Below, one piece after another: positions 5,366 through 63,880 of a stretch of 64,000 nt of DNA. The DNA lies in contig CM041776.1 in NCBI GenBank assembly GCA_023374045.1, positions 478,753,375-478,817,374 of the forward strand, given 5' to 3'. This stretch comes from Limonium bicolor. Its lineage: Eukaryota > Streptophyta > Magnoliopsida > Caryophyllales > Plumbaginaceae. A program made the position numbers and the translations under genes. The number at the start of each line of letters is the position of its first letter. Within the stretch, counting starts at the first letter, position 1. The notes beneath the pieces were generated by a model. It was given only the letters and a program-made list of their open reading frames with translations. It had not been told where the DNA came from and did not search any database.

Positions 5366-5382
5366 ATCTACCCCCTTAAAAA
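5366..5382 (-). other. E1 polypurine tract next to the 3' LTR
   Basis: The minus strand reads AAGGGGGTAGAT directly before the LTR start, the expected primer for plus-strand DNA synthesis. The same motif with an extra G is found at 21729-21741 and 53034-53046. Confidence 0.8.
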
Positions 5383-9809: not shown

Positions 9810-9837
9810 ATCAGAGCGGTACTCCGCTCTGATACCA
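9810..9837 (-). other. E1 primer binding site in a hairpin
   Basis: The minus strand reads TGGTATCAGAGC (9837-9826), complementary to the 3' end of initiator tRNA-Met. It overlaps a perfect inverted repeat: arms 9810-9818 and 9825-9833 (ATCAGAGCG/CGCTCTGAT) with a 6-base loop. Confidence 0.85.
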
Positions 9838-9840
9838 CTT

Positions 9841-13865: not shown

Positions 13866-13906
<41 letters not shown>

Positions 13907-15694: not shown

Positions 15695-15699
15695 AAAAG

Positions 15700-15727
15700 T
15701 GGTATCAGAGCGAAGTATCGCTCTGAT
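15700..15727 (+). other. E2 primer binding site in a hairpin
   Basis: TGGTATCAGAGC at 15700-15711 matches the 3' end of initiator tRNA-Met. The arms ATCAGAGCG (15704-15712) and CGCTCTGAT (15719-15727) form a perfect 9 bp stem with loop AAGTAT. Confidence 0.87.
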
Positions 15728-20149: not shown

Positions 20150-20175
20150 CGTAATCCCTTTTAAGGGGGGGTAGA
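20150..20175 (+). other. E2 upstream polypurine tract
   Basis: CCCTTTTAAGGGGGGG followed by TAGAGC, about 1.57 kb before the 3' LTR. It matches the motif that follows the pol stop codon in E5 and E6. Confidence 0.6.
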
Positions 20176-21728: not shown

Positions 21729-21741
21729 AAGGGGGGTAGAT
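21729..21741 (+). other. E2 polypurine tract
   Basis: AAGGGGGGTAGAT immediately before the 3' LTR start at 21742. Confidence 0.85.
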
Positions 21742-25792: not shown

Positions 25793-25797
25793 CTCCA

Positions 25798-28700: not shown

Positions 28701-29556
28701 ATAATTGGAGGGGAAGGCTGGCCTCACACGATTTTGTGGCTGGTGGAGTCAATAATGGAGCCTAAAGGAGTGTATAAACTAATAAAAGGCAAAAGTAAGC
28801 CCTTAATTTGTGGAGAAATGTTGGAGACTTGTTTATTGTGTACTGGTGGGGAATTGGAGCCTCATTTGCTTTTAAATTTCGAACTTATATGGTCTAAGGG
28901 GTCAACTTTGACCTCTTGACCAATCTTAGTCAATATTGACTCCTACGGGCCCCCTTTTAGGGTTTTATGAATATTTTAATATTAAATTTGTAAAAATTCG
29001 TAAATTTCTGGAAATAAATTCCTAATATCATATAATATGATATTTTATCATATTTAAAGGTAATCATAACCTTTTAGCTCATTTAAAACCATTTTAGAAG
29101 GTAATTACATAAAAATGTGCTTTAAGGAGTTTTAGTGCACATTTTGTGTCGCAAGGTGTTTCTGAGCTCTGTTTTCTTTGAAAACGGTTTTGTTGTGTTC
29201 CTTACATGATATTTGATCATGGTATCCAATTTTATATTATTTAGAGGTCATTAGACCTTTAAGGTTTCTTAGAGCACATTTTTGCCCTTTTGACCTTGAA
29301 GCATGAAAGTGCATGTTCTTTGTGTTGGAGTGTTGTCCAACGACTTTAATATGTTTAGTAATGTGTTAATAAGCTTAGGACAAATTTTTAGGCCCTAAGT
29401 AGTTCATTTGGGTATTTATTTACCCTTAACAGTCAAAGGGTGCAACTTCTTGATTTGTGTTGACCACTGTTGTTCTCAGTTGACTTTTAAGGCATGTTTA
29501 GGCCTTGGTTAATGTGATTAAATATTTAATCCATTTTTATTAATTTGGGTATTTCA
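25798..29556 (-). repeat. 5' LTR of E1, part 2 (LTR 5' end)
   Basis: Continues the E1 LTR after E2. It matches about 1570-5365 closely with scattered indels. The minus-strand LTR start (TGAAATACCC) is at 29556. Confidence 0.9.
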
Positions 29557-31754: not shown

Positions 31755-33331
31755 TAGGAAACTTCTGACATCTTTCACAGAGGCTGGCGGTGGCAACTTC
31801 TCAATGACTTCAACTTTGGCTTTATCCACCTCAATACCCTTGCTCGATACCTTGTGACCCAACACAATGCCCTCTTGCACCATGAAGTGGCACTTCTCCC
31901 AGTTCAGCACTAGATGAGTTTCTCTGTACCTGGCTAGAATATGATCCAAATTGTCCAAACAAGAATCAAATGTTAGTCCAAAAACAAAAAAATCTTCCAT
32001 AAATACCTCGATGCATTTCTCAAGATAATTAGAAAATATAGCAGACATGCATCACTGGAAGGTGGCTGGCGCATTGCACAATCCAAAAGGCATGCGTCGG
32101 TAAGCATATGTTCCATAGGGGCATGTAAATATGGTCTTTTCCTGGTCCTCTACAGCAATAGGAATCTGAAAATAACTAGAATATCCATCCAAGAAACAAT
32201 AATATTTATGCCCTGAAAGCCTCTCTAACATTTGGTCCATGAATGGAAGAGGAAAATGATCTTTCCTAGTTGCATCATTCAACTTCCTATAATCAATACA
32301 CACCCTATGCCCTGTAATAGTTCTTTGAGGAACTAATTCACCTTTATCATTGGGAACTACAGTAAATCCCCCTTTCTTGGGCACTACCTATGTAGGACTT
32401 ATCCATTCACTATATAAAATTGCATAGATAATACCTGCATCCAGAAGCTTGATTACCTCCTTCTTCACCACTTCTTTCATGTTAGGATTCAAGCGTCATT
32501 GAGGTTGAACCATTGGCTTGCAATTTTCCTCCAAGTGAATGCGGTGGGTGCAGAAATTGCTTGATATCCCCTTGATATCAGCGATAGACCATCCAATTGC
32601 TTCCTTGTTCTTCTTGAGTACCTGTAAAAGTTGCTCCTCCTGCGTATGTGTTAGATTTGCAGAGATAATAACAGGTAAACTAGAGGGCTCAACTAAAAAG
32701 ACTTATTTCAATTGACTAGGAAGAGGTTTCAACTCTAAGGTGGGTGGTGCTTTGATAGAAGGAATCAACTCCTTAGGTTCTCATTATAATCTCTCCTTCT
32801 TCACATGAGCACCCTTGTGGAAAGGCCTGCCTGCTGATAAATGGAACGCATCCTCAGCAATCTCTGGATCCTCATGAGCTCCATCGAAAGAATTAATTAA
32901 AAACTTTTCTAACTCATCCAATTCAGCTGGACCAAAAATATATTCCTGCATCAAGAATCAATAGGATCCAGACTAAAACAGGCATGCACGTCAGAAGGGT
33001 GTTTAGTAACCTTGGACATATCAAAAACCAGCTGCTCATCATGCATTCTCAAAATAATCTTACCACCCTCAACATCAATGAGGGTTCTAGTTGTTCGCAT
33101 GAAACGGCATCCAAGAATTAATGGTACTTCCTTGTCTTCCTCCATATATAGAATCACAAAATCAACAGGAAAAACAAAAGTACCAACAGAAACAACCAAA
33201 TCTCTCACCACACCCTTCGAGAAAATAATAGACCTATCTGCTAACTGTAAAGTAATACGAGTAGGCTCACACTCCCCTAATCCAAGCTTAAGGTACATGG
33301 ACAAAGGCATCAAATTAATGCTAGCTCCCAA
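31755..33331 (-). pseudogene. E3 pol fragment: protease and N-terminal RT
   Basis: The protease (33331-32951) begins with DLGASINLMPLS, the Athila form of the aspartic protease motif, and continues LQLADRSI and PVDFVI. After a linker with stops, the RT (32384-31755) shows VCIDYRKLNDAT, the CFLDGYSSYFQI block (first catalytic Asp) and PFGLCNAPATFQ. A TGA stop then replaces the expected Arg codon (CGA), consistent with methyl-CpG decay. The usual FMDD catalytic motif reads FMED, so the enzyme would be dead even if translated. A TAG also precedes VVPKKGG. The RT is cut after VRSFL by the S1 LTR; RNase H and integrase are outside the window. Confidence 0.85.
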
Positions 33332-33941: not shown

Positions 33942-35338
33942 TCAGTTGGGCAATCTGAGTCTCAAGGTGTTTGTTGAAAGTTTTCTGCTCCAACATGAAT
34001 GTCTTGTGCTCATGGTTCGTGTTTCTTGCTGTTCAAGTTTCCTATTGGTCGACAAGATAAACTCCCACATCATATCCTCCAAACTCAAACTAACACAAGC
34101 TGGCTGATTCTGTTTCTGCTGGTTCTGCATTTGCTGATTCTGATGAGGTCTCTGAAAATGCTGATTGTTCTGTTGTGGAGGTCTCTGACTATTGTTATTT
34201 CCCTGAAACCTCTGTTGCTGATATCCCTGATTATTTTGATTGTTGTAGAAGTTCCCTTGCCTGTTTCCCAGATAGTTTACCTCTTCATTCTGCTGAGAGA
34301 CATACTGACACATGTTGGAACTTCTACCACAATACTCACACTGTGGAAAAGAATCGTCACAACAGCTGCACTTGACTGAGGATTCATTATTGCGCACATC
34401 TTCTCGAATTGCTTAGACATGCTGTCCATCCTAGCAGCTAAAAGAGTGTTCGAATCTACCTCATAGATTCCAGCGGTCTTCTTTGGGAGAACCTCAGTAG
34501 CAGCCCTAGTACCTCCCCACTGATTAGCTGAGTTAGTCAGTGTCTCGAGCAGCTCTTTCATCCTAGTGATTGGAAGCTCCATGAGACTACCTCTTGCACA
34601 AGTATCCATCAAAAGATGGCTCTGGGGATCGAGATCTTTGTAGAAAGATTGCAGCACGACTTCCTCTCCTAGACCATGGTGCGGTACTCTTCGAACAATA
34701 CCCTTGGATCTCTCCCAAGCCTCTGAAAGAGTCTCCCCACTAAATTGCTTGAAATTGGTAATCTCACCTCTCATGGTCAGCATTCGAGATGGTGGGAAGT
34801 ACTTCGCCAGGAATGTGTTTGCGAGCTCAGCCCAAGAAGTGATGCTGTTAGGTGCCAAGGAATTCAACCACTCTGTAGCTCTATCCCTCAAGGAGAAGCG
34901 AAACAAAGTCAGCCTTGCTACCTCCTGAGATGCCTAGGTCAAACACGCTCCAACCAACCGTAGAAAGGATGTTAGATGAACATTTGGATCTTCTGTAACT
35001 GTCCCACTAAACTGTGGCGCATTCAAGACCACCGTGATGTAATGGGTCTTGAACTGCCACTCTACCCCTGCCGGCAGGGCTGGGATCACTATTGGTGATG
35101 TGAGTCCCTCCACATTCGGACGACTGTAGTCATTCATCCTTCTCTCTTGGTTGTTACTATCACCCGCCATAAAACACTCCTCTTCTGGAACAAATGTATC
35201 ACCTGGAGAATCCTTGATAAACACTTCTGGCTCAACTATAGAATCCAGTACTAATCCTTGACGACTTCTTCTAACAAGTTGCTCTATCTCAGGTTCAAGC
35301 TCAAATTCAGGATAGCCTGTAGAACGAGCCACAGTCAT
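33942..35338 (-). pseudogene. E3 gag (Athila-like)
   Basis: Overlapping frames at 35338-34934, 34906-34277 and 34397-33942 together make a degraded gag. Signatures include EDPNVHLTSFLRL, FSLRDRATEWLNSL, FLAKYFPPSRM and SEAWERSKGIVRRVPHHG, the capsid core typical of Athila/Tat elements. A Gln/Asn-rich stretch follows (QQQRFQGNNNSQRPPQQNNQ). There is a stop between the first two segments and frameshifts after. 33332-33941 is the degraded Gag-protease junction, with no further motif that I can support. Confidence 0.8.
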
Positions 35339-42583: not shown

Positions 42584-45500
42584 TGAAATACCCCAAACTT
42601 AGATATGGTGTTTAAATGATAAGCTAAGATATAAGGAGGCTAAATAATGCCTTAGAAACATTTCTAATCAAAGAAAATATAAGGAAACACCAAAAGAGCA
42701 GTTTAAGCAAAAACGTGCTCTAAGCTTGGAGAGACTTGGGAGAGTACCCAACTATTGTTCTAAGACCTTAGTAATATCCTAATGGTCATTTTAAATCAAT
42801 TACCAAAGAAAACCAAGCTTGAAAACAAGTTAAAACACAAAATGTGCTTTAAGGAGTCCTAAAGCACATTTTTGAAAAACTGTCTTGTAAATGAGTTTTG
42901 AATGGCTAAATGTCCATCATTACTCTTTAATTAACATGTGTACTATATAGTATCACATTTGGAAGTCTACATCAACGGGAAATCAAAAATTTCACAACAA
43001 TGTGCCTTGTTTTGTGAATAGTAACTTAATTAAGCTAGTTTATAACATAAGCAATATAAGAGGATATTTGGTCAACAAAGACTTAAGTACCCTTATTATT
43101 AAATGGGGGCCGGTTTCTTATAAGGTGAGTCCCACCTTATGAGTCATTAAGCAAATAAAGAGTTATAAAGCAAAAGTACTATTCACCCTTTAACATAAAT
43201 ATCTCATTACTTACCTCTCTCACCTCTTCATTCTCTTGTTTCCCACGATTTTTCTCAAGCTCTCTCCCTTCTCCATTAACGTGAAGAGCAACTCCATGCT
43301 AGCTCCATCAGCTTTGCACACATCTTGCTCATTTTAGCTCCAAAACCAAAACAAATCACATATTCTCCTTAGTTAGCTCAAGCTCCTTCTTTCTATCTTT
43401 TCAAAACTCCAAGAGCTTTGATTTGGTGCCAAGACAAACCACCATTAGAGGAGGAAATTCAAGTTTGGAGACTCCATTGGCTTCTCCATTCTCTTAAGGT
43501 AAAGAAAGTGTAAGAAAATCTAGGTTTCCATCACTTTTCTTCATAACCGAAAATACATGCTCATGAGGCTTCATTTTAATGCCTTGTTCTAGCTTGTTTT
43601 CTACTCTTCAAAGGATTGAGGAGGTCCTTCTTGCTTCATATCCAAGCTTGTCTTGAGAAACCAAGGTAAAACAATCACCTTAATACCTTAAAGCACATTT
43701 TTAACCTAGGGTTTGTTCCTTAGGGTTAATGTATTATCTAGTACTCATAGGAGTCATTGGATATTGGTTAGAACATTGGCAAGGAGATATATATTGGTGA
43801 CCGAGATTGAGCAAGGAAAAACCTAAGGAAGAAAGCTTTTAAAGCTTGTAAAAGAACAAGGTAAATTACTTACCTTAAGGTGTTTTATTGTTTAAGGGAA
43901 TGGGATTTAGATATGTGATGAGTTTAGTAGAGAGTTTACATTAGAAAAGGGTTATATATGACCTAGGAGAAACAATGACTATGTTTGTGAACTTGTGACT
44001 AAGGAGCAAATGAGAAAAAGAGATAGTTTAAGAACATCAAGGTGAATTACAAGAAGCATTTTATTTCAATGGGAGCCTTGTTGTGTGTATTCGCAGGTTG
44101 AAGGCAAATATATGAGGAAATTCAGTGGTTAAGATTATTGTCATTAAGGGCCTAAGTGCCAAGCATTTAAGTTTATGCACTATATGATGATGTGGTGTAA
44201 ATTGTGTGTTAAGGTGTTGTGATGAGAATTTGGGTGATTGATGGAGAAAAACCAAGTGTTAGGATGTGATATATACTAGAGAACCCATGGCAAAATTGAA
44301 AGGAGAACTTGGGTGTTTAAGATGTTCTAAGGGAATTTAATGACTAAGGAAGTACTAAGAAGTTTTAGAGGTTGTCTTGATGAAAAAGGGGTGAGATAAA
44401 GTGTTTTAATGAGTTATAATGACTTAGGCATTGCTAGGAAGGATTTAGGAATCAAAAGAATATACTTGAGTATTTAGGACTTAGGCAAATGTTGATGAAC
44501 AACTAGGAAGGGAATAATGTGTAGATAGATGGAAGCATAAGCTTGTGAAGAAACTATGAGTAGTTGTGTAAAGGAGTTTTAGATGGTGAAAGATGCTTGG
44601 GAGATGATGTTATTGTGGTGAGGAAGCATTTGGCATAGTGGTTATACTAGGTATGAACCACCACCTAGAAACCTAGTGAAAAACATTACAAGTGTTGGCA
44701 TTATTACAAGGAAAATGCATAATGACTAAGGTGGATCTTGGTGAATGATTTAATGTGTTTAGTGTAGGGCTTAAGGTGTATTTGAGGTGCCCAAATGAGG
44801 TTATAACATATTAGGATATATGAGGAGAAGTTTGGAGTTGAAAGAGAATTTAGAAACAAGGTTCTGGAGCCGACCGACCTTAGGGACCGGACCTGCAAGG
44901 TCGTCGAGCTCAGTTTACACTGCTGGAGAAAGTTTCTGGAACCGACCGAACTTGGGGACCGGACATACAAGTTCGGTCGGGCTTGTATTTTGTGAAGGAA
45001 TTAAGTCTCTGGAATGGACCGACCTTGGGACCGGACTTGCAAGGTCGGTCATGCCTAGAATTTTGTATGGTAATAAGTCTCTGGAATCGACCGAACATGG
45101 GACCGGACTTGGCAAGTTCGGTCGAGCATAAATTTCCCACGGGGGAAACTCTCGGGAATGGACCGACCTTGGGACCGGACTTGCAAGGTCGGTCGGGGTA
45201 GAATTTTCAAACGGTAATGTGTTCTGGAATGGACCGACTTAGGTAAGGTCGGTCGGAAGTTCGGTCGAGCTAAAAAAAGAAATAAAAAAAAAGAAATTTG
45301 AATTCTAAGGATGGTAATAGGTAATAAGGTATACCTTGGGTAGGGTGGTAATGATTAGGACCCTAAGAACTTTAGGGATTAAGTTAAGTTAGTATAAATT
45401 TTAATGTTTAAAGTTAAGTTTGTAAGTTAAGTGGCAAAGATCTAAGAAGGTATTCAAAGGGGATCTTTAGGAATTAAGTGAGGTAAGTAAGGTGCAAACA

Positions 45501-46744
45501 ACTAATGGTCTAAAAATGAACCAATGTTTTAGGTTTGTGAATTGGGACCCCGAAGAAGGTTAATCAAACAACGATCGACGGTGAACGGTACAATCTTTCT
45601 TGTGACCTGCTTGCTAACGAGGTGTCCCTCGGCTTGTGTGCTATCTGTTTAATTGCTATGACTAAAACAAGATAAAGCATGCAACCGGTTATATTTGTTC
45701 TCGTTGTTTGTGTTATCTTACACTAACCCGCGAGACTTGAGATTGTTACTAACCAAGTTTAGTACTTACTGAGTTAAGAATAAGAGTTAAGTTTGGTGGT
45801 TGTTGGTTAATGCCCGTTAAGGCTTAGCTAGCACATGGCAATTAAGATTTTTACTAACTGGAACTTGAGTGAGGAAACCCGGGACCGATCTCCGGTCATG
45901 CATGCTAAGGAAAAAGGGGGACAGTATCTGAATCAGATCCGCCCTCCGCTTAAGGACTTGTCTTCGGACTTGTAGCCTAGGGCGGTTGCCGGCTCAGCTA
46001 CGCTGGACTCCCGTCCAGAGTAGATGACATTAAGATGGTGCGGTGGGATTACCTAAATCCCAGGTTCGAATTAAGCTACAACCATTCCCTTCCAGGAATG
46101 GTTTGTATACTGAGTAAGTTGAGATAAGATTAAGGTAGGTAAGGAACTGAGATTAAGGAAATGAGGACTAAGGGGGGGTACTAACCCACTTGATAAGGGA
46201 ACGCTTGAGTCGTTCATTGTTTGTGAACTATACATGTTCATCTGTGGTTAGTGTTATTGCACTTCATATCATGCCTGTGTATGTAATCAATTTCCATGCT
46301 ATCGACAATTAGTCGTCGTAGCCCCGTTAGCTTGGGGGCCATGAGAGGGTGGACCAGCATTCGTGCTGACCCCCTTTGGGAGCTGTTTTACACTTGCAGG
46401 TAAGAGACCCATGAGGACGCACTACGAGAGTAGGAGCGGTTAGACTTAGGATGGGATGTTTATTTTGAGTTCGGGTTGCGCCTGTGCACCCGACTGTTTA
46501 TATTTAAACTAATGTAAGGATGTGGTTATGACTTAGTTACTTGTACTTGGTTGGTTGACGGTATTATGGATGGTGATGTTTGGGTTGGTTATGTATTGTG
46601 GATAAATGTTGTAATTGTTAAGGCCGGTATATTCTAACGATCAGACCGTGGCAAGGTCCAGGTGTTTATTATTTCCGCTGCGATGAGTTCGATTAAGTGT
46701 ACAGTTTTGCGATAACCACGATTGGCTTTGGATGGGGTGTTACA
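42584..46744 (+). repeat. 5' LTR of E5 (4.2 kb)
   Basis: TGAAATACCCCAAAC at the start, GGGGTGTTACA at the end. It holds the palindromic array (44866-45273) and a conserved block near 45570-45690 (GACGGTGAACGGTA) also seen in the E2 and E6 LTRs. No gene inside. Confidence 0.92.
44866..45296 (+). repeat. Palindromic tandem array plus A-rich tract in the E5 LTR
   Basis: Six units of about 70 bp with core GACCGACCTTGGGACCGGAC...GTCGGTC and spacer ending CTGGAATG, followed by an A-rich tract (45271-45296). Confidence 0.88.
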
Positions 46745-46749: not shown

Positions 46750-46777
46750 TGGTATCAGAGCATAGTTACGCTCTGAT
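46750..46777 (+). other. E5 primer binding site in a hairpin
   Basis: TGGTATCAGAGC at 46750-46761. Arms ATCAGAGC (46754-46761) and GCTCTGAT (46770-46777) enclose an 8-base loop that differs from the other elements. Confidence 0.85.
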
Positions 46778-47578
46778 CAAGAAATACCGGACGTGAGTAA
46801 CCACCGAGTTAGGATATAAGTTAAGGAATAAGTGATGGGTTAAGGGTGTGAGAAGTTAGAGTGAGTAGAGTCAGATGACCACTAATAAGTGTGGATCGTC
46901 TTTACCGTCTACGGACGTTATAAATTCACTAACCGAAACAGTGGTGAATACGAATCTAATGTGAGTTATGCTTGTTCAGATGGCAGGACGTCCTAGGGGA
47001 AGCCGAGGTCACGGCCAGGGTGAGGATACTTCAGGAATACCGGGAGGGCAGACGATCGCAGAGATCGTAGCTGCCGCATTAGGGCATATGGGCTATCAGT
47101 CTGGTGTGGGTGCACCACCTCCACCGCCACAACCTAGGGAACCAAATTGGGTGAAGAGTCTTGCAGATCTTCGACCCGCGCACTTTAAGGGGGAGACCGC
47201 CTTCGAGACCCTTGATGTCCCTGCTGGGATCAAGGTGCGTCTGGCTGCTTTCTATCTGAAGGGGGCGGCAGGCGATTGGTGGAAGCTGGTGAGGGCCGAG
47301 CATGGGCCAATCCAGAGTTCGGCTGGGAGCAGTACACCGCCTTGCTACGAGCAAAGTACTACCCCGCCCATGTCCAGACGAAGAAGCGCTTACAGTTGGA
47401 TGCGCTTAAGCAGACAGACAAGATGACAGTGGACGAGTATTACTCAGAGTTCACCGCCTTGCTCCGTCTTCTGCCAGGTCTTGGATATTCTGACCAGATC
47501 CTGGTAGACCGCTTCTATGGCGGGCTTAGCCATCGACTCCGCTACGGCATGGGGCCGACGAGTTACACTACCTTGCAG

Positions 47579-47664
47579 GTAATAAGAATAATTGAGGTTT
47601 GAGTAAGAAATGAGTAAGATTTAGATTATGAGAAATAAGAGTGACTAATACTATGGAAAAGCAG
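47579..47664 (+). other. E5 gag intron 1 (86 bp)
   Basis: GT...CAG between the codons of LQ and ECYHAA (phase 0). E1 has an intron at the same point; E6 is continuous there (58728/58729). Confidence 0.8.
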
Positions 47665-47917: not shown

Positions 47918-47997
47918 GTAAGGAATTGATATTGAATGAGTTAAGAAACAAATTAGTAACCGTTTGAGATATGAGAATTGACATTATGAATCATCAG
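47918..47997 (+). other. E5 gag intron 2 (80 bp)
   Basis: GTAAGG...CAG in phase 1, just before the zinc-knuckle exon. E6 has the equivalent intron at 59000-59091, and E1 at about 8602-8518. Confidence 0.75.
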
Positions 47998-48338
47998 GAT
48001 CTGAGACTGAGAAGGGAGCCGGTGGTGGCTACCAGCGACGCTTCATCTGTAGGTGTTGTCACAAGGACCACCCCGGGCTCGACTATAAAGGGAATAAGGT
48101 GGAGTGCAACTTTTGTGGAGTGTATGGACACCGGGCATACGAGTGCTACCGCAACCCTGCTAGAGAGAGCCTATAGGCCCGACACCAGGGGCAAGGGCAA
48201 GACCGATCAGGGAGCTGGATCTGACGGTCAGAGGAAGGTGCAGCAGGTGGCGGACAAGAACCCTAGGGTGACCCAGAAGTCGGGACCCACTACACATGGT
48301 GGACCGGGACGATGAACCTGAACCCTCATCGAGGCCAG

Positions 48339-49361
48339 GTACCGCTATAACCATTTAGTAATAAAACTACCTGCTTACCGCATTATCATGCATGTTTGGT
48401 GAATAAATGAGTTAAGTAGAATGAGATGAGATTAGAATTAAGTAAGATATAACCTACTACCACTTTAGGAAGATTCAACATCTGCTACCCAATACCATCT
48501 ACACCTAACCCGGAGCACACCGACATCGAAACCATAGACTTTCCAACCGAACAATGTCAGGTTATCCGCCCAGGTATGATTTATTAAGGGGATACCTGAC
48601 ACCCGAAGCACAAATAGCCATCATCAGAAGATGCAATCAACTAGGAATGGGATCGGGAGGTTTTTACACACCGGGAGTACCTAGGGGGAGCAAGGATGAA
48701 ATTAAAAATGATGAGCGGGCAAGGATTGGAATCCGTATGCCAAGAATTACCAAACCACGAGGATGCAAGATGGAGTCTCACCACCGGGAATACCCGAAGA
48801 GTTCCATCCAGTTATTACACAAGTTGTGGAAATCGCTCAGCAGTTGGAAGCTGAACCGATTCCAGACATTCAAGCAGACATTTGCATTGTGAACTTCTAC
48901 GAGAAGGACGGGCGACTTGGACTACACCAGGATAAGGACGAGACAACGGAGTCTCTCGAAAGAGGGATACCCGTAGTGTCTTGGTCCATCGGGGATGATG
49001 CAGAATTTTTATACGGCGAGCAGAAGCGTGCGGACCATGCAAATAAGTTGGTACTTAAGTCAGGTGATGTGTTAATTATGGGAGGAGAATCAAGGATGTT
49101 ATACCATGGGATTAAGAGAATCAAGCTGAATACAGCACCGTCAGCAGTGATCAATGCGACACCCATGAGACCGGGGAGATTAAACCTAACCTTTAGACAA
49201 TATTAGCCATGTTATGTTAGAATGAAATGAGGAATGAGATGTAAGATTTAAGCTCATGTTGTAAACAGGATGGTTATGAATAAAATAACAATGTTGTTCA
49301 TATGAATTGTTACAACTCTTGTTATACCATCAATACTCATGAAGCTTATGAACACAATTAG
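48339..49361 (+). other. E5 gag-pol intron 3 containing the AlkB exon
   Basis: Donor GT at 48339. Two acceptors are possible: TTTAG at 48468 opens the AlkB exon, and TTAG at 49361 opens the protease exon. Both exons continue the phase-1 reading frame. Skipping AlkB joins gag directly to protease in frame. Confidence 0.65.
48469..49206 (+). CDS. AlkB-family 2OG-Fe(II) dioxygenase (ALKBH1-like) in E5
   Basis: AlkB enzymes oxidatively remove methyl groups from nucleic acid bases using Fe(II) and 2-oxoglutarate. The exon opens with RFNICYPIPS, then QCQVIRPGM and GYLTPEAQ, a lid region like plant ALKBH1. A one-base deletion near 48575 and another indel around 48690-48760 disrupt this N-terminal part. 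The catalytic core is open from 48763 to 49206 (147 residues): NFYEKDGRLGLHQDKDE with His55 and Asp57, PVVSWSIGDDAEFLYG, SGDVLIMGGESRMLYHGI with His115, and GRLNLTFRQY with Arg139, Asn141, Thr143 and Arg145 (RxNxTxR). All iron and 2OG ligands are present. It ends with its own stop. It lies between the Gag knuckles and the protease, with intron boundaries on both sides. ALKBH1 affinity is from memory of the family; the substrate is unknown. Confidence 0.9.
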
Positions 49362-52300
49362 GTTATGGGCTCGATACGGAAGGTGCGTTAAGCATATTTA
49401 CAGAGGCACAGGCCGACGTCAGCGGTACTATCCTCACCGGCAACTTTCCGATTAATGGGATTGAGGCATCAGTTCTCTTCGACTCAGGGGCCTCGCATAC
49501 CTTTGTCTCGGCATCATTCGCGAGCAGGTTGGGGCTAGACGCTGATGAGCTACCCGACTTCACGGTTACGCTCCCGTCTAAGGAGCAGGTTTGTTGCACT
49601 CGTTACTACCGAGGAGCCACTATCAGAATTAAGGGAGAAGACTTTCCAGACAGTTTTATTGAGTTCAGTAAGCTAGGATTTGATGTTATCTTCGGGATGA
49701 ACTGGTTGGAGCGGTACAAGGGACGTATCCTCTGCGCCGAGCATAGATTGCTGCTCAGGATTCCGTCTGGGGTAACAATATCATACCGCCAGAGGCCCAG
49801 AGAGCCTTCGACTAAGATCATCACCGCCATGGCAATGTATAAGGAATTGAGGAGAAAGGAAGAAGTGTACCTCTGCTATGTACAGGACATAGAGAGAGAC
49901 CCTGAGTTTGACCCCGACTTACCGGTAGTGTCGGAGTTCCCCGACTTGTTTCCACGGGAACTGCCCAGCATGCCACCCACTCGGGAGGTAGAGTTCACCA
50001 TCGAGCTGCTACCTGGTACCGGACCGATAGCCAATGCACCATACCGTATGGCTCCGGCATAAATGAATGAATTAAAGGAACAATTGAAAGATTTATTGGA
50101 TACGGGATTTATTAGAACAAATGTGTCGCCATGGGGAGCGCCAGTCCTCTTCGCGAAGAAGAAGGATGGTAGTCTCCGCCTCTGCATCGACTACAGAGAG
50201 CTGAATGCAGTGACAGTGAAGAATAAGTACCCACTACCCCGCATTGACGATCTGTTCGACCAGTTGAAGGGAGCATCTGTGTTCCCCAAGATTGATCTCA
50301 GATCGGGGTATCGTCAGATAGCCATTAAGGAGGGAGACATTGAGAAGACGGCATTCCGGACACGATACTGCCACTATGAGTTTACAGTGATGCCGTTCGG
50401 ATTGTCGAACGCACCGGCGAAGTTTATGGATTTGATGAACCGCTTGTTCCGGGAGCAGCTGGACAAGTCGGTTGTGGTGTTTATTGATGACATTTTGATA
50501 TACTCGAAGTCTAAGGTTGAACATGAGGAACATCTGAGGAGAGTATTGGAAATATTGAGGGAGAACCAGCTATATGCTAAGTTCTCCAAATGTGAGTTTT
50601 GGCTTGACCAGGTCTCTTTCCTAGGTCATGTCATCTCAGATGCTGGGATCTCAGTGGATCCAGCGAAGATTGATGCCGTACGTACTTTGCCAAGGCCGAA
50701 GACTGTTACCGACATCCGGAGCTTTCTCGGTCTGGCAGGTTACTACAGGAGGTTTGTTAGGGATTTCAGCAAGGTCGCGAAACCGATGACCAGTCTGATG
50801 AAGAAGGATGCACCGTTCTTGTGGACAGTTGACTGTGAGAGATCATTTCAGAGCTTGAAGGACTCACTGACCACTGCACCGGTTCTGACCATTCCAGACG
50901 GTACAGAGGGCTTTGAGGTTTATTGTGATGCATCCGGCAGAGGGCTGGGTTGCGTGCTCATGCAACATGGCAAGGTGGTGGCATATGCCTCACGCCAGTT
51001 GAAGAAACATGAGGAGAACTACCCCACACATGATTTAGAGCTGGGAGCTGTAGTCTTCGCTCTGAAGATATGGCGCCACTACTTATATGGGGTTAGTGTC
51101 ACGATCTACACCGATCACAAGAGTTTGAGATACATATTCACTCAGAAGGAGTTAAATCTTCGACAGAGGAGATGGTTAGAGTTTCTGAAAGACTATGACA
51201 TTGACCTCCAATACAAAGAGGGGAAGGCCAATGTTGTAGCAGATGCCCTGAGCCGTCGAGCACACTCACTCCATTCGCTAGTTTCTTTCTCCAGCTTGGT
51301 TGATGAGGTGCGGGAGGCTCAGAGGACAGATGAGTACATGAGAGAGGTCAGACAGAAACTGATAGATGGTACCTTTGAGAGTCAGAAATATGACTTCAGA
51401 CTTCATGATGATGATCTGATCGGACTTAATGGCCGGTTATGCATACCACGGGGCAACACGGATCTGAAAGACCGTATACTTAGAGAATCACACTGTTCTT
51501 CAGTTTCCATCCATCCGGAAGCCTCTAAAATGTATAAAGACATGAAGAGATACTTCTGGTGGTCGGGGATGAAGACAGATGTTACCGAGTTCATCTTGAG
51601 GTGTCTCACATGCCAGAAGGTGAAATTCGAGCATCGACGACGGGCGGGGAATGGTACAGTCGATGCCAGTTCCGGAGTGGAAGTTCCAGATATCTCCATG
51701 GACTTCGTAGTTGGGCTTCCACTGCTAGGGGAGGTCTAACATGATAGGGTGGTGATGGATCGCCTTACCAAAGTAGCCCGATTCATACCGATGAAGGATA
51801 CTTGGAAGGTGACCAAATTAGCTGAGTTATTTGAGAAAGAATCATGAGACATCACGGGATACCAAAGACCATAGTGTCAGATAGAGATACCAGATTCCTT
51901 TCGAGGTACTGGAGAGCTACCAGAGAAGCGTTGAGTACAGAACTCAAGCTGAGTACCGCGTTCCATCCTCAGACAGATGGTCAAACTGAGTGTACTATTC
52001 AGACACTGGAGGACATGCTGAGAGCATGTGCCTAAGACTTCCAGGGCAGTTGGATTGACAGACTACATCTGATCGAGTTTTCATACAACAACAGCTATCA
52101 CGCTTCGATCAAGATGGCACCTTTTCTAGCGCTGTACGGTAGACCATGTTGTACACCGCTCTGCTGGGATGAGTCGAGTGAGATGGTCATTATAGGACCA
52201 GAATATTTAGAACAAGTTAAGGCTGAAGTTCAGCAAATCAGGGAGAACATGAAAGCTGCTCAAGATAGGCAGAAGTCATATGCTGATATTCGACGACGGG

Positions 52301-53046: not shown

Positions 53047-53708
53047 TGAAATACCCCAAACTTATATATGGTGTTTAAATGATAAACTAAGATATAAGGA
53101 GGCTAAATAATGCCTTAGAAACATTAAGAAACATTTCTAATCAAAGAAAAATATAAGGAAACACCAAAAGAGCAGTTAAGCAAAAACGTGCTCTAAGCTT
53201 GGAGAGACTTGGGAGAGTACCCCAAATATTGTTCTAAGACCTTAGTAATATCCTAATGGTCATTTTAAATCAATTACCAAAGAAAACCAAGCTTGAAAAC
53301 AAGTTAAAACACAAAATGTGCTTTAAGGAGTCTTAAAGCACATTTTTGAAAAATTGTCTTGTAAATGAGTTTGAATGGCTAAATGTCCATCATTATCTTT
53401 AATTAACATGTGTACTATATAGTATCACATTTGGAAGTCTACATCAATGGGAAATCAAAAATTTCACAACAATGTGCCTTGTTTTGTGAATAGTAACTTA
53501 ATTAAGCTAGTTTATAACATAAGTCAATATAAGTGAGATATTTGGTCAACAAAGACTAAGTACCCTTATTATTAAATGGGGGCCGGTTTCTTATAAGGTG
53601 AGTCACCACCTTTATGAGTCATTAAGCAAATAAGAAAGCAAATAAAGAGTTATAAAACAAAAGTACTATTCACCCTTTAACATAAATATCTCATTTACTC
53701 ACCTCTCT
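53047..53708 (+). repeat. 3' LTR of E5, first 662 bp
   Basis: Matches 42584 to about 43212, with small indels and short duplications (for example an extra AAACATTAAG near 53124). It is cut in ACCTCTCT at 53708 by the next LTR. Confidence 0.9.
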
Positions 53709-53854
53709 TGAAATACCCCTTAATTAAAAACAGTGATTAATTAGGCTAATTATATTTTTAAAGGATTAATTACACTTAAATAAATACTAGGGAACAAATC
53801 CCAAAGAAAACGGACCTTTAAAATGGGTTAAAAGCATAAATGAACCTTAAAAAT
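53709..53854 (+). repeat. Head of an E6-family LTR, interrupted
   Basis: 146 bp that repeat the first 146 bp of the following E6 LTR, with a few substitutions. Best read as the LTR of an earlier insertion of the same family, into which E6 jumped; a local duplication of the LTR head is the alternative. Confidence 0.7.
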
Positions 53855-56800
53855 TGAAATACCCCGTAATTAAAAACAGTGATTAATTTGGCTAATTATA
53901 TTTTTAAAGGCTTAATTACACTTAAATAAATACTAGGGAACAAATCCCGAAGAAAACGGACCTTTAAAATGGGTTAAAAGCATAAACGAACCTTAAAGCG
54001 CGTTTTTCGAGGAAACCGGGAAAACGCGACTTTAAGCGGGTCAAATAGACTCGTAACAATTTTGGTCAACTAAATAGTCACTAATAAATATTAGCGATGC
54101 TTTAGAACCAATAAAATTAATTAAACGAGAAAATTCCGGAAAACGGGTACCGGTTAGTGAAAACTGTAACAACCGGTAAGTTGTGGGGTAAGAGTACAAA
54201 TAAACAAACTAAGTGTGTCCACTTTGCAAATAAAAATATGTGTGTGTGTGTGGGTGTGGGATCCGATTTCCCCTCTCACTCTCACTCTCTTATTGTTTCC
54301 TTATAACTAAAAGACAAGGGAAATAAGTAAAAACAAGACCCACTCTCTCTCCTATCCTACCCTCTCTCACGTAACCCCCTCCTTCTTCCTTCTCTGATTT
54401 TCTCCTTCCCCTGCGATGGCCATGGAGAATGGAAAACTCATTCAACCCACTCCTTCTCTCTTCTTGTTCTAGCTCAATACTTGTCCAAAAATTATAAAAA
54501 CCATACCACTAGAATCCCCTTGCAAAGGAGAACATTTCCCTCCTTTCAAAAATCCAAAAGCTCCATTTTCGATTTTATGGGTATTCACCATTTGAAGATT
54601 CAAGTCCACCATTAGAAGCACCTTCACCTCCTTATCATCTTGAGGTAAAAAGAATTTCGAAAATCCTTCCTTTCTAGCACTCATTGGCATTTTAAGGATT
54701 TTCAGTTTTGAACTCTTGGTTCCTTGTTGCTTCAGCCGATTTTGGCTCTTCCTTGGGCTAGGAATCTTGTTCTTTCACTAGTCAAGAGCTTCATCTACTC
54801 ATTGGAAGGTAACACTTTTCTAAACCCTAAAACCTAAATTCTAGGGTTAAGTATAAAATGAATGCTAATGGTATTGTGTATTTATTATGGGCTGTAGCAC
54901 TTTGTGTGTGTGAAACCCATTGAAACCGAGAACAAAGAGAAAAGGAGAAGAAAAGAAGAAGAGGAAAGGAAAGAAAGAAAACTAACAAGACAAGGTAAAT
55001 ACCCTTACCTTGAGTTAGTTGGTATTGTGTTGTAGCAGTTTTGGAGTAGTAAAATGAGTAGCGAATGAGTAATGAGTAATGAGAATATTGTAGTATAATG
55101 AATAATGAAGTTGCAACAGTTTTGAAGTTTTTAAATGAAGTTTAAAAGCTTGGGAAAACCATGGGTAACATGTGTATAAGTGCAGGAATTTTAATGTGTG
55201 TAGTAGTGATGAATGGTGAGTATAGTGTGTTGTGTAAACAGGTTGTGAGAATGAATGTGAATTGTGACTGAGATAATGTGTGGAGAAGTAAGAATTATAG
55301 GGGAGACCATGTCAAAATTTGTGTAGAAAGGAGAGGACTTGAGTTGTTTAAGAAGAGGAAGTTTTGGAGAGTTTAGGAGGAATATTAGTGCCTTGTAACA
55401 GATTTGAATATGGGTTTGTAAATGAGATGGAACTAGGTTGTGAGCTAATGTATTTAAGATGCCAAGAGTGGCCTTGGATGAGGAGGTATTGGAGTATAAG
55501 AGTAGAGGGAAAAATCTGTAGGATAAGGTATAAGGGAAGAGACAATGGAGTGTTGAGTTGAAACTTGGGGAAATTGAGTGTATAAATAAGCATAGGATTG
55601 TGTGATGTATTAAGGGATGAATTAGTATGATTTAGAGTGTCTAAATAGTACTAAAACATGTTAGGATGCATGTAGGAAGAATAGGGAAGCAATGGGTGAA
55701 ATTGGGAAGAGAAAACAAGGCCTGTAGCAAAGTTCTGCTACTGTCCGACCCACAGCTGGATCGGACGCTGGGTCGGACAAGGCCTGAGTAACGAGAATAA
55801 ACTTTCTGGAACCGTCCGACCCAGAGCCGTGAGTCGGACGTGGGTTGGACGGGACTTGATAAACGACAGTAATTCTTTCTGGAATGGTCCGACCCAGGGC
55901 CGTGAGTCGGACATGGGTCGGACAGGTAAAATTTTCTTCATCGAAGTTTCTGACTTCGTCCGACCCAGAGGTTGGGTCGGACGTGGGTCGGACATGGCTT
56001 GGTGACAAAACTGAAACCTTCTGGAATGGTCCGACCCAGAGGGCATGGGTCGGACGGAATAGTGCTGGGTCGGACGGGAGTAATTTCAGAGGACGAAAAC
56101 CTACTGGAATGGTCCGACCTAGGATTGGGTCGGACGGTGGGTCGGACGGCCCAAACACTTACAAAAAAAATGTTTTTATAATATGACTATAGCAATCATA
56201 TATATGTATATATATGCCTATACACCGGTATGCATGTATACGTAGTAATACACCATTAATGAAGTGATAATGGTAAGAAAGTAAGTAAATGAGTAAGGAA
56301 GTAAGTTTATGAAGTAGTAAAAGAAAGAATGGTTTTATAACCAAGTAAGAAAGTAATGGAGTAGTAAGTATGCATTGAAAGTATCAATGAAGGAGTAAGT
56401 AGATCAATAATAGATCATTGATCATACTACTTCATGCATGTATAGGAATCCCATAGTTGAGCTCCAAAGGAACCGGTAGTACCCTGCGACGGTGAACGGT
56501 ATGATTTCCTCATGCCCTGTATCCTAACTTGGTTACCCCGATTTGTGTGCTTATGTGATCACCAATAAGATAAATGCACGAATCGGACTTAAATTGCACT
56601 TAATTGTGTTTGACCTATATTCTTCTTGTTTATTGCTCTTGAACACTTGGTTTGTATAATTCATGAAATGAATGAATGGAAATGAAGTGTATGTGTAAGT
56701 ATGAGTACTTGTGTATGTATGTATGTATGGAAGTAAGTATGGACTTCTACTAATTCCTAACAACCTAACTCCTAACATGAGTAATGAGTAAAATGGAATG

Positions 56801-57845
56801 AGTAGAAGCCCGATATAGTTTCGGCCACGCGTGAGGATAAGGAACCACAAGAGGTTGGAACCGAATCCTGGCTATAATCTTTTCCTTGGACCAAATCCCT
56901 TGAATGGGTAGCATCCTGGATTAGTGGGCCACCCTAAAGCCCGGTGGTGGGATGTAGTAATTCCTGCCCGGAGGTCATACCGACTTAACTGGAAGTAAAG
57001 TATGTAAGAAGTAAGTATTGTATTTGTATTGGTCTTGACTATTGTAAGTCATTGACCCGGAGTAAAAGTATTGAACACCCGATTAACCCGGGTGTGTAAT
57101 AAGGCTAACAAGACCTTTGTATGTATTGGAGAATTGTATCTCCGTGATGCGGTGAGTATGGTAAGTATGAATGAATGACTTGTATTGTATTCCTTGTACG
57201 TATTGTATGTATGTATGCTTGGTAAAATGAATGTAATGTATTGTATTGTATAAAGCATGTATGTATGTATGAATGAAACGAACCGCATGTACTCGACCAA
57301 ATAGTTGGCGTACCCTCGCTAGTACGCGGGGTATGCGGTTATCATATGCAGCGTAAGCTGACCCCCTAGGGGGAATGTTTTTACTCCACAGGTACCCGCG
57401 AGGCATGAAGGTAAAGTAAGGTCAAGATGTGACTTTTTGGAGTAGTAGTAGGACTGAAACGGTGTACTGAGTTGTACACGGCTAAAGCCTTTTTGTGTAG
57501 CCGGTGTACCATGTGGTACACCTTTTTGGATATTGAATTCTTGATTGGATAGAAAGGAGAGTTGTATAAACTCTTCATTTTTGGGAAGTAGTCTTGGAAT
57601 GTAATTCGTATACTTTAGACACTCGGTAATCAAATGTAAGCTAAGTATTTGGTATTGTAAAGTAAGTATGTATGTATTTCATTCTAATCATCAGACCGAA
57701 ACAGTAAGTAATAGTAGCCTTGTTAACCTTGGAGGGTTAACGGCGTTGTATCACCCGCCGGGAGTAGGTAAGTATTCCGCTGCGAGAAGGGTAAGTATGG
57801 GATTGATTAGAGGATAATGGAAGGATTAGCGGTTGGGGTGTTACA
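53855..57845 (+). repeat. 5' LTR of E6 (4.0 kb)
   Basis: TGAAATACCCCG...GGGGTGTTACA. It aligns along most of its length with the E2 LTR (for example 54420-55000 with 12150-12720, and 56460-57050 with 14190-14780), but the palindromic array has a different core. A TG microsatellite lies at 54236-54252, and a TATATATA-containing stretch at 56198-56218 is a possible promoter region. Confidence 0.92.
55742..56170 (+). repeat. Palindromic tandem array in the E6 LTR, different core
   Basis: Six units of about 70-83 bp with core GTCCGACCCAGAG...GGGTCGGAC; most spacers end CTGGAATG. A short A tract follows. Same place and plan as the E2 array, but the core sequence has been replaced. Confidence 0.88.
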
Positions 57846-57850: not shown

Positions 57851-57878
57851 TGGTATCAGAGCGAAGTATCGCTCTGAT
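57851..57878 (+). other. E6 primer binding site in a hairpin
   Basis: TGGTATCAGAGC at 57851-57862; arms 57855-57863 and 57870-57878 (ATCAGAGCG/CGCTCTGAT), loop AAGTAT, identical to E2. Confidence 0.87.
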
Positions 57879-59436: not shown

Positions 59437-60504
59437 GTAACCACTGTAACCTTTAATCCTTGAAGAGCATGACTAAGTATTAAAGTAATTGTATGAATGA
59501 AAGCATGAATGCGTAAGTACTTGAAGTATGAAATTGAGCATGAGTAAGTAACATGGAAGTATGTATTGAGCATGAAATGAATTAGTAAGCCTAGAACTCA
59601 TTCTAGATGAATTTACCACCTTAGGGAAATTCCATATCTGTTACCCAATACCTTCAAACTCACCTCATGAAGAGACCGACATCGCCAATCACCACTTCAA
59701 CAACGAACAGTGTCAGGTCATCCGCCCAGGTATGATCTTATTAAAAGGATACCTGACACCCGAAGCACAAATTTCAATCATCCGACGATGCAACGAGTTA
59801 GGAACGGGTCCAGGAGGATTTTATACACCCGAATTCCCCGGTGGAGCTACAATGAAGCTGAAAATGATGTGCTTGGGAAAGGACTGGAACCCTTATACCA
59901 AGACATACCAAACAACGCGAGCAGAGAGACGGAGCAACACCTCCAGCAATACCCCCAGAATTCCAAACGCTTGTCACACAAGCTGTAGAAATTGCACAAC
60001 AATGAAGATGAACCAATCCCTGCACTTGAAGCAGATCTATGTATCGTCAACTTCTATGAGAAAGAAGGACGACTTGGCTTACACCAAGACAAGGACGAGA
60101 CAGCGGAATCTCTTGAACTAGGAGTGCCCGTAGTGTCTTGGTCCATTGGTGATGACGCCGTATTTTGTATAGCGAGCGGAAGCGTGTGGACCTCGCAGAA
60201 AAATTGGTATTGAGATCAGGAGATGTTCTAATCATGGGTGGAAAATCAAGGTTGCTGTATCACGGGATCCAGAAGATCAAGTTGAATACGGCACCACCGG
60301 CAATAATCAATGCCACACACATGATACCAGGACGCCTGAACCTTACCTTTAGAAAGTATTAATCTTGTAGTAGCATGTAATCCAGTAGTAACGTGTATTA
60401 GAGACACAGTATGTATGATGGTTGGTTATTCAATAAAAGCAGTGTTGGTTATTAAATTCCACTTGCGTTCCACCATCTTTACTTATAATCTCATGAATCA
60501 ATAG
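59437..60504 (+). other. E6 gag-pol intron containing the AlkB exon
   Basis: Donor GTAACC at 59437. Acceptors: CTTAG at 59624 (AlkB exon) and AATAG at 60504 (protease exon). Both continue the same phase-1 codon, so splice choice decides between a Gag-AlkB and a Gag-Pol product. Inferred from consensus and frame, not from RNA data. Confidence 0.65.
59625..60362 (+). pseudogene. AlkB-family dioxygenase (ALKBH1-like) in E6, frameshifted
   Basis: Same domain and position as 48469-49206. Here the N-terminal lid is better preserved: KFHICYPIPS, QVIRPGMILLKGYLTPEAQ, GTGPGGFYTPEFPGGA and KMMCLGKDWNP, the last two being the parts I associate with plant ALKBH1. Small indels around 59935 and 59995 shift frame. 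Then comes NFYEKEGRLGLHQDKDE (iron-binding His at 60082-60084 and the Asp two codons on). A missing T in a T run near 60165 breaks the frame once more before SGDVLIMGGKSRLLYHGI and GRLNLTFRKY (RxNxTxR complete). It ends in TAA at 60360-60362. All catalytic residues remain. The lesions are one or two bases and could be sequencing errors. Confidence 0.85.
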
Positions 60505-63500
60505 GTTGTGGACTCGGTACCGAAGGTAACCTGAGCATCCTCACCGAAGAACAAGCCGGCAAGAGCGGCACCATTCTAACGGGAACCTTCCCAGTAAACG
60601 GCATCGAAGCCTCAGTATTATTCGACTCCGGCGCCTCTCACACCTTCATATCGCCATCTCTTGCGAAGAAGTTGGGGCTAGATGCGGATGAGCTACCGAA
60701 CTTCTTGGTTACTCTCCCATCGAAGGAGCGGGTACAGTGTACCAAGTATTACAAATCAGCCACCATTCAAATCAAAGGTGAAGCGTTTCCCATTTCCTTC
60801 ATTGAATTCAACGGATTGGGATTCGACTTAATATTGGAATGAACTGGTTGGAGCGGCACAAGGGGAGAATCCTATGCGCCGAGCACCGATTGCTGCTCAA
60901 GAGTCCATCTGGGGTCACTGTTTCATACCGCCAGAGACCGAGAGAGCCTTCAACTACAGTCATCTCCGCCATGGCAATGTATCGGGAGCTCAGAAAAGGG
61001 CATGAAGTGTATTTATGTCACGTGCAAGACCTGGAGAGAGATCCAGAGTTCAGTGACGAGGTAGCAGTAGTCTCAGAATTCCCTGATGTATTTCCGAAAG
61101 AGCTACCTGGTATGCCACCACAGAGGGCGGTAGAATTTGAAATCGACCTTGTACCGGGTACTGGTCCCATTGCTAGGGCACCATACCGTATGGCACCGGC
61201 AGAAATGGCAGAACTCAAAGAACAGCTACATGATCTTCTCGACAAAGGGTTTATACGCCCGAGCGTATCACCCTGGGGAGCACCGGTCCTCTTCGTGAAG
61301 AAGAAGGACGGTAGTCTCCGCCTCTGCATCGACTACCGCGAATTGAATGCGGTCACTGTAAAGAACAAGTCCATTGCCACGCATCGACGACCTGTTCGAT
61401 CAGTTGAAGGGAGCATCCGTCTTTTCTAAGATTGATCTCCGATCCGGTTACCACCAAATTGCTATCAAAGAGCAAGACATTCAGAAAACAGCATTCCGAA
61501 CAAGATATGGCCACTACGAATTCACGGTGATGCCATTCGGTTTGTCTAATGCACCAGCCAAATTCATGGACCTAATGAATCGGTTATTCAGTGATCAGCT
61601 GGACACTTCAGTAGTAGTATTCATTGACGACATTCTTGTGTATTCGAAGTCACCAGAAGAGCATGAAAACCATTTGAGAAGAGTACTTGAGACACTGCGC
61701 GAGAACCAGCTGTATGCGAAGTTCTCCAAATGCGAGTTTTGGCTAGATCAGGTATCATTCCTCGGTCATGTCATCTCGAGCGCGGGCATTTCAGTAGATC
61801 CATCCAAAATCGAAGCAGTGCGATCATGGCCTAGACCTAAGACTGTTACCGACATCCGGAGCTTTCTTGGTTTAGCCGGTTATTACCGGAGGTTTGTAAA
61901 GGACTTCTCAAAAGTCGCTAAGCCCATGACGTCATTGATGAAGAAAGATGCACCCTTTGTATGGACAAAGGAGTGCGAGGTATCCTTCCAGAAATTAAAA
62001 GACTCATTGACCTCAGCGCCAATTCTCACACTTCCAGAGGGCACAGAGGGATTTGAGGTGTATTGTGATGCATCGGGCAAGGGCATGGGATGCGTACTCA
62101 TGCAGCATGGCAAGGTAGTAGCCTATGCTTCTCGCCAGCTGAAAAAGCATGAGGAGAATTACCCGACACATGATCTAGAGTTAGGAGCCATTGTCTTCGC
62201 CTTGAAGATATGGCGACACTATCTCTATGGGGTAAGCATCACCATCTACTCCGACCACAAAAGTTTACAGTACGTATTCACCCAGAAAGAATTGAACCTA
62301 AGGCAGAGGAGGTGGATGGAGTTCCTCTCGGATTACGACATCAACCTCCAGTATAAAGAAGGGAAGGCAAACGTAGTAGCCGACGCCCTGAGTCGTCGAG
62401 CACACTCGCTCCATTCGCTACTCGCTTCTTCTAGCTTGGTTGACGAGGTGCGAGACGCTCAGTTGAGCGACCCTTACTTCACAGAGATCAGACAGAAAAT
62501 CACAGATGGTACCTTCGAGCGCCGAAAGTACGACTTCAAACTGCATGAAGATGGTCTGATCCGTTTGAATGGCAGATTATGCGTCCCCCGAAGCAATGCT
62601 GAGCTAAGGGATCGCATTCTGCGAGAGTCACATTGTTCGACATTGCATGTCCATCCGGGAGCCTCTAAAATGTACAAAGACATGAAGAGGTACTTCTGGT
62701 GGTCAGGATGAAGTCAGACGTGACTGAGTATGTTCTGAGGTGTCTCACATGCCAGAAGGTGAAGTTCGAGCACCGAAGACCGGGAGGAATGGTGCAATCC
62801 ATGCCCATTCCGGAGTGGAAATTCCACGACATCTCCATGGATTTTGTTGTTGGACTCCCACCTGCTAGGGGAGGACTCAACATGATCTGGGTAGTAGTCG
62901 ATCGCCTCACCAAGGTTGCCCGATTCATACCGATGAAGGACACCTGGAAGGTGGCGAAGCTCGCAGAGCTATTCGACAAGGAGATCATCCGACACCACGG
63001 AGTCCCAAAAACCATTGTATCTGACCGCGACACCAGATTTCTTTCGAGATACTGGAGAGCGACACGGGAAGCGCTTGGTACTGAGTTGAAGCTTAGCACC
63101 GCCTTCCATCCACAGACCGACGGTCAGACAGAAAGGACCATCCAAACACTAGAGGATATGCTAAGGGCATGTGCCTTAGACTTCCAGGGGAGCTGGATTG
63201 AGAAGCTTCATCTTATCGAGTTTTCGTATAACAATAGCTACCATGCTTCGATTAAGATGTCGCCATTCCAAGCTTTGTATGGTAGACCTTGCCGTACCCC
63301 GTTGTGTTGGGATGAGTCAAGCGAAGCGGTCATCATAGGACCGGAGTATTTGGAACAAGTACAAGCTGAGGTACAACAAATCCGAGCCAATATGAAGGCA
63401 GCCCAAGATAGACAGAAATCCTATGCGGATGTGCGACGACGCGACCTTGAGTTCGCCGTGGGCGACCAAGTGTTCTTGCGTGTCTCACCTATGAAGGGTG

Positions 63501-63880
63501 TCTTTCGATTTGGCCAGAAGGGCAAACTGAGCCCGAAATTTGTAGGCCCGTATGCCATTACCGAGAGGATTGGAGCCGTAGCTTATAGGCTAGCATTGCC
63601 TGAAGAATTGGGGCGTGTTCATGATGTCTTTCATGTATCACAACTCAAGAAATACATAGCCGATCCCTCTCATGTATTAGAACCCGAACATCTATCCCTA
63701 GAGCCGACGATGAGATATGTCGAGACTCCACTGCGAATCCTTGATACCAAGACAAGAGACACTCGCCATAAATCTGTACGAATGGTGAAGGTCTTGTGGT
63801 CTAACCACGATGTCGAGGAAGCGACTTGGGAATTAGAGGACGCCATGAAGGCGAAGTACCCGAATTTATTTGTAGACTAG
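60505..63880 (+). pseudogene. E6 pol: protease, RT, RNase H, integrase, chromodomain (few frameshifts)
   Basis: The exon follows the acceptor at 60504. Protease: VLFDSGASHTFIS, with a one-base deletion at about 60833. 60839-61429 carries MNWLERHKG through [23 protein letters not shown] two-base deletion near 61370 shifts into 61374-62711: RT with FIDD, RNase [10 protein letters not shown] and VVADALSRR, and the integrase zinc site. A missing G near 62706 (WWSG/MK) shifts into 62699-63880: integrase core with Asp48, Asp109 and Glu145 (D...D-35-E; MDFVVG, VSDRDTRF, DGQTE), the C-terminal domain, and a chromodomain-like tail (VKVLWSNHDVEEATWELED) that would direct integration into heterochromatin. 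Only three small lesions over 3.4 kb. Clade call Tekay/Del from the tail and long LTRs. Confidence 0.92.

Follow-up and report, generated by a model that had tools for sequence, protein, structure and literature searches.

A 64,000-nucleotide stretch of the Limonium bicolor genome (GenBank assembly GCA_023374045.1, contig CM041776.1, positions 478,753,375 to 478,817,374; hereafter, the window) contains two copies, E5 and E6, of an abundant Ty3/gypsy long terminal repeat (LTR) retrotransposon, likely a chromovirus, that carries a captured exon of ALKBH1 type. We consider it probable that the element makes a Gag-AlkB protein that would travel with Gag and demethylate adenines in the element's RNA or single-stranded complementary DNA (cDNA).

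The AlkB exon of E5 begins at base 48469 (CACTTTAG/GAAGATTC, where a slash, here and below, marks a splice border) and ends with a stop codon at 49204-49206. A first-pass annotation of the window had described this stretch, 48469..49206, as an AlkB domain with the iron triad and RxNxTxR motif, placed between Gag zinc knuckles and a DSGAS protease motif, and both the motifs and their order proved correct. The profile search that it had proposed returned Pfam 2OG-FeII_Oxy_2 (PF13532) for the translated open reading frame (ORF) at 48763-49206 (147 amino acids; E=9.9e-38), with a score of 130.7 bits, above the curated cut-off of 31.2. Both the iron ligands (HQD...H) and the 2-oxoglutarate motif RLNLTFR (R-x5-R) are present, held by the C-terminal ORF at 48718-49203, and the domain lies 3' of two CX2CX3-4HX4C/Y knuckles and 5' of DSGAS. 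The exon opens with a stretch, FNICYP, that is the counterpart of the FDIC motif in plant ALKBH1 proteins, and among AlkB types the domain is nearest to ALKBH1. The annotated borders coincide with the start and stop of the exon, but the stretch is not one open frame in E5: the N-terminal part (48471-48713) is divided between two frames, with the C-terminal part (48718-49203) in a third. The features of E5 are as follows.

42584..46744, plus strand: 5' LTR (4.2 kb), with ends TGAAATACCCC ... GGGGTGTTACA
46750-46761, plus strand: site resembling a primer-binding site (PBS), TGGTATCAGAGC
46968..47578, plus strand: gag, capsid part, with a Retrotrans_gag match on the ORF at 47276-47602
47579..47664, plus strand: gag intron A, absent from E6 and precisely missing in 2/70 genome loci
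47918..47997, plus strand: gag intron B, precisely missing in 5/70 genome loci
47998..48338, plus strand: Gag nucleocapsid exon with two zinc knuckles
48339..48468, plus strand: intron C, separating the Gag knuckle exon from AlkB (CCAG/GTACCG ... CTTTAG/GAAG)
48469..49206, plus strand: AlkB exon, ALKBH1 type, stop codon TAG, frame-broken in this copy
49207..49361, plus strand: stretch from the AlkB stop to the protease exon; AATAAA lies at 49279
49362..50062, plus strand: protease exon, starting AATTAG/GTTATGG, with the DSGAS motif near 49485
50063..51739, plus strand: reverse transcriptase (RT), RNase H and the start of integrase
53047..53708, plus strand: 3' LTR, interrupted at 53709 where E6 inserted, with a purine tract just 5' of it

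The domain is not a chance insertion into E5, because the second element in the window, E6, has it at 59625-60362, likewise between zinc knuckles and protease. Copies are also numerous across the assembly (2.92 Gb in 2,686 contigs). Searching this genome with the 147-residue AlkB sequence turned up 43,047 candidates at first look; the 150 that were scored all had at least 95% identity, and 140 of them had no internal stop listed. Among 30 loci returned for AlkB, E5 itself included, a knuckle motif lay upstream in 29 and a protease motif downstream in 24, so that the gag-AlkB-protease order expected from the first-pass annotation is found in E6 and in most of these loci; the catalytic residues tested were present in all 30. 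E6, the 150 scored matches and the flanking motifs together rule out a single copy or a chance event. In a larger sample of 70 loci (these 30 and 40 more that were fetched, each chosen as a best AlkB match), the exon was open over its full length in 43 and the catalytic set was present in 69. Open AlkB frames were also found in P0001, P0002 and P0003.

The first-pass annotation had taken AlkB as a fixed part of a Gag-AlkB-protease polyprotein; instead, it is an alternatively spliced exon. In both E5 and E6, the nucleocapsid exon ends CCAG/GT and leaves one codon base, the AlkB exon follows TTAG, the protease exon follows (T/A)TAG, and each of these two exons gives the two missing codon bases. 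A single donor at the end of Gag is thus in phase with both the stop-terminated AlkB exon and the protease exon, and if it goes unused a stop is met six codons on, at 48356 in E5 and 59454 in E6. Splicing from Gag to protease removes intron C, AlkB and the stretch at 49207..49361 together. The stretches that flank AlkB, towards Gag and towards protease, are AT-rich, with a GC content of 0.30-0.34 versus 0.46-0.59 in coding parts. Phases were undisturbed in 9 of the 30 loci, and in 7 of the 12 with a knuckle frame open to the donor; the other loci are off phase, as would be expected where copies carry frameshifts. Across the 70 loci, the donor GT was unchanged in 65, the AlkB-side AG was counted in 70 (including L096, where unrelated sequence stands at that place) and the protease-side AG/GT was present in 70, while the AlkB stop was found in 69 and AATAAA 3' of AlkB in 66.

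Spliced copies in the genome are consistent with this layout. Counting only exact matches of the predicted spliced junctions, with the reversed pattern as control, we found eight genome copies of the Gag-protease junction, in which AlkB is skipped, and two of the Gag-AlkB junction (reversed pattern, 0 in each case). These exact copies indicate that both splices happened and that their products were then copied back into the genome, which, as read from DNA only, amounts to alternative splicing, with different products arising from defined GT-AG sites. Five of the eight Gag-protease copies lack introns A and B, one lacks only B and two keep both; the open stretches spanning their junctions range from 60 to 779 residues. 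In one Gag-AlkB copy, the frame of both knuckles enters AlkB and then breaks, and the other is open from 21 residues 5' of the junction through AlkB to the stop. One possible reason for the smaller number of Gag-AlkB copies is that their message terminates at the AATAAA 3' of AlkB, without the 3' end required for copying.

Loss of the gag introns was scored with a 40-base threshold. Among the first 30 loci, two are missing introns A and B precisely at the predicted borders, and 5 of the 70 lack intron B exactly, including two that also lack intron A; no further locus fell below the threshold. The 86-base intron A of E5 (47579-47664) is absent from E6 exactly at the splice borders, a difference that fits either intron gain or loss via a spliced copy. 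Two of the copies that skip AlkB, L158 and L159, are separated by about 9 kb of the same chromosome, share 98% identity and may be one retrocopy event that was later duplicated.

Comparison of E5 with E6 shows that the AlkB exon has been under selection as protein. Over 238 codons, the proportions of nonsynonymous (pN) and synonymous (pS) differences were 0.131 and 0.659, giving a rough ratio of nonsynonymous to synonymous rates (dN/dS) of 0.09 (bootstrap 0.05-0.15), with 43, 32 and 103 differences at the three codon positions. The same ratio was 0.07 in protease and 0.04 across RT, RNase H and integrase. We considered whether AlkB might be a passenger, a piece of host gene caught once and carried without function, as the broken frames of E5 and E6 and the 27 of 70 loci without a full-length open exon might imply. 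Such a passenger would not be expected to show a ratio of 0.09, near that of protease, over a long separation while wrong-frame controls lie near 1 or above (0.99 and 2.09), nor open frames in P0001, P0002 and P0003 and splice phases kept in E5 and E6. Provided the alignment is right, the wrong-frame comparison largely rejects this explanation, which we regard as most improbable. The AlkB domain was clearly kept as protein, under strong purifying selection, through a long history shared with the element. We set aside diversity among the 30 loci for this purpose because they had been chosen as best AlkB protein matches. Protease variation by codon position among them was nearly equal (0.087, 0.076 and 0.109), as expected for decaying copies.

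As to the origin of the captured domain, the element sequences form a separate, well-supported clade apart from host plant ALKBH1. In a 60-row tree, this branch falls in an unresolved part; in a 32-row tree with a conifer protein as root, it lies outside the other 27 host proteins, a placement for which long-branch effects are possible and against which four tested unions were not rejected (approximately unbiased test, p 0.13-0.31). Comparison places the domain in the ALKBH1 type and rejects ALKBH5; no ALKBH5 appears in 50 listed rows of relatives, which alone proves nothing. A bacterial origin was also rejected: when bacterial and archaeal contigs were scanned with P0001, the highest identity was 47%, below plant ALKBH1, and the best 80 of 578 relatives all came from bacterial records. 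Viral contigs scanned with the E5 domain gave no relative, and those scanned with an AlkB alignment gave three, at 33-37%.

Under our preferred reading, the exon would encode a captured Fe(II)/2-oxoglutarate dioxygenase of ALKBH1 type, and the choice made at one donor would set the protein. Unspliced RNA would yield Gag but no Pol; a splice to the AlkB exon would yield Gag-AlkB followed by a stop, and one to the protease exon would yield Gag-Pol. Gag-AlkB, produced beside Gag and Gag-Pol, could then be packaged, with Gag bringing AlkB to the element RNA, and within the particle an ALKBH1-type enzyme would meet single-stranded RNA, single-stranded DNA and RNA-DNA hybrid. Its predicted target is methyl-adenine, namely N1-methyladenosine (m1A) or N6-methyladenosine (m6A) in RNA, or N6-methyldeoxyadenosine (6mA) in cDNA or RNA-DNA hybrid. 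Loss of the methyl group may let the RNA escape sequestration that depends on m6A, or may allow reverse transcription to proceed through blocked bases. In the available sections of the sources, m6A on plant retrotransposon RNA is reported to cause sequestration in stress granules, and ALKBH9B, by removing it, to release ONSEN RNA (PMC12786077); ALKBH1 is reported to prefer unpaired DNA (PMC10469495). More tentatively, we suggest that this three-way switch at one donor, between Gag, Gag-AlkB and Gag-Pol, serves to load a demethylase into particles and so could defeat host methyl marking from inside.

Two other targets were weighed. AlkB could act on host RNA or DNA and weaken host silencing, with the join to Gag a mere route of expression. 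Plant ALKBH1 does work on host chromatin, as R-loop regions gain 6mA when rice ALKBH1 is lost, according to the available part of PMC10469495; the orchid paper discussed below names other cellular RNA as an optional target in the text available (PMC9289625), and a protease cut could release AlkB from Gag. However, the spliced AlkB would sit behind the Gag knuckles, which points to the element's own RNA, and we regard a host target as unlikely. AlkB might instead mainly repair alkylation damage, m1A and 3-methylcytidine (m3C), in the RNA or cDNA that is packaged, a role proposed for the AlkB of plant RNA viruses, rather than remove host marks. We think this quite unlikely; closeness to Escherichia coli AlkB is common to all plant ALKBH1 proteins and says little about substrate.

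Several observations weigh against the proposal that Gag-AlkB demethylates the element's nucleic acids. The AlkB frame is broken in both window copies and in many others. Gag-AlkB copies are few (n=2, counted as exact matches of the spliced junction only), and intron C is missing from none of the 70 loci, which were picked by AlkB. Additionally, dS between E5 and E6 is near saturation, which makes the dN/dS ratio rough, and the substrate is a guess from the AlkB subfamily.

The second copy, E6, is inserted in the 3' LTR of E5 and has the following features.

53709..57845, plus strand: 5' LTR, inserted in the E5 3' LTR
57851-57862, plus strand: PBS-like site TGGTATCAGAGC
59437..59624, plus strand: intron C (CCAG/GTAACC ... 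CCTTAG/GGAAATTC)
59625..60362, plus strand: AlkB exon, ALKBH1 type, frame-broken, with the ligand residues present
60505..61204, plus strand: protease exon, starting AATAG/GTTGTGG
61374..63880, plus strand: RT, RNase H, integrase and a C-terminal chromodomain-like stretch

The order of gag, protease, RT, RNase H and integrase, with LTRs, PBS and polypurine tract, is that of Ty3/gypsy elements, as seen with the E5 3' LTR cut and the E6 3' LTR outside the window. The E5 LTR stretches open to comparison are 93% identical over 676 columns. The chromodomain-like stretch of E6 matches PF00385 with E=3.1e-4 and 21.0 bits, under the Pfam cut-off of 25.1, and along 144 residues it is 58% identical to a Solanum protein annotated with PF00385. 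We describe the element as likely a chromovirus, and it may resemble Tekay/Del. The earlier placing of an ALKBH1-type domain in a Ty3/gypsy chromovirus stands in that form, for a chromovirus-like element with many copies and a domain kept by selection. A near-perfect direct duplication of 144 bases occupies the very start of the E6 5' LTR (53708-53997).

The window also holds other elements. At 11564-25792, a pair of LTRs of about 4.1 kb, 97% identical and with CTCCA on both sides, encloses an interior with no AlkB or Pol match; these LTRs are 78-82% like that of E6, and the element is probably a non-autonomous relative. It splits a larger minus-strand element (1-11566 and 25793-29559) that has a long repeat at each end, a gag match at 8980-9546 and no Pol match. 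Gag-like ORFs and a distant Pol match at 33942-34906 and 31755-32468 (both minus strand) belong to another, older element, perhaps Athila-like.

Comparison with known systems shows that AlkB capture by a plant LTR retrotransposon has a precedent. The first-pass annotation had known of no LTR retrotransposon with its own AlkB, but Ogre/Tat elements of Phalaenopsis carry an ALKBH5-type m6A demethylase, with enzyme assays (Alvarado-Marchena et al. 2022, PMC9289625, as far as its text was available), and PMC12786077 repeats this case in its available part. A screen of 121 angiosperm genomes reported there found AlkB-bearing elements in two Phalaenopsis species only. Like E5 and E6, Gypsy_Pa_2799 of Phalaenopsis is a plant Ty3/gypsy element with a captured 2OG-Fe(II) AlkB, many copies and conserved ligands. 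It differs in being Ogre/Tat by RT tree, 25.5 kb long, with a PBS for tRNA-Arg, a single Gag-Pol ORF and AlkB in a separate ORF2 (565 amino acids), and its m6A demethylase activity was shown in vitro (PMC9289625). E5 and E6 have no ALKBH5-type AlkB in a separate ORF2; theirs is of ALKBH1 type, lies between Gag and protease, is spliced to Gag and accompanies a chromodomain-like C-terminus. Among the open-access papers listed, judged by title and beginning of abstract, PMC9289625 alone described an AlkB-bearing LTR retrotransposon, and ALKBH1-type capture, the gag-AlkB-protease order and a spliced Gag-enzyme fusion were not found; the available sections of PMC11963269 and PMC11728184 mention no AlkB domain in the LTR retrotransposons described there.

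Each of the remaining systems shares one part of this arrangement. Plant ALKBH1 (rice OsALKBH1, 5xeg/5xoi; ALKBH1C/1D) has the same family, fold, FDIC-like start and ligand residues, but is encoded by the host and has a longer N-terminal region. The AlkB-bearing plant RNA viruses of the Alphaflexiviridae, Betaflexiviridae and Closteroviridae are RNA-based and have their own AlkB (available text of PMC9289625), but by description are set apart by having no Gag and no reverse transcription. Splicing is known in the plant retrotransposons BARE1, Ogre, CRR and EVADE (PMC3735527, PMC12786077, in the sections available), where, as in E5 and E6, alternative splicing decides which proteins the element RNA yields. 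In those elements it produces a short message for Gag or connects the usual ORFs, whereas in E5 and E6 one donor additionally serves an exon for an extra enzyme. What is new here is that a chromovirus-like element has separately captured another AlkB type and carries it as an exon that alternative splicing fuses to Gag. Taken with the orchid elements, this suggests that plant LTR retrotransposons have captured AlkB at least twice, from different subfamilies (ALKBH5 and ALKBH1) and in different lineages, an argument for nucleic-acid methylation being a genuine obstacle to them. The spliced Gag fusion offers a concrete delivery route for AlkB, with genome copies that record the splicing, and makes it a direct biochemical question whether a mark so erased would sit on RNA or on cDNA.
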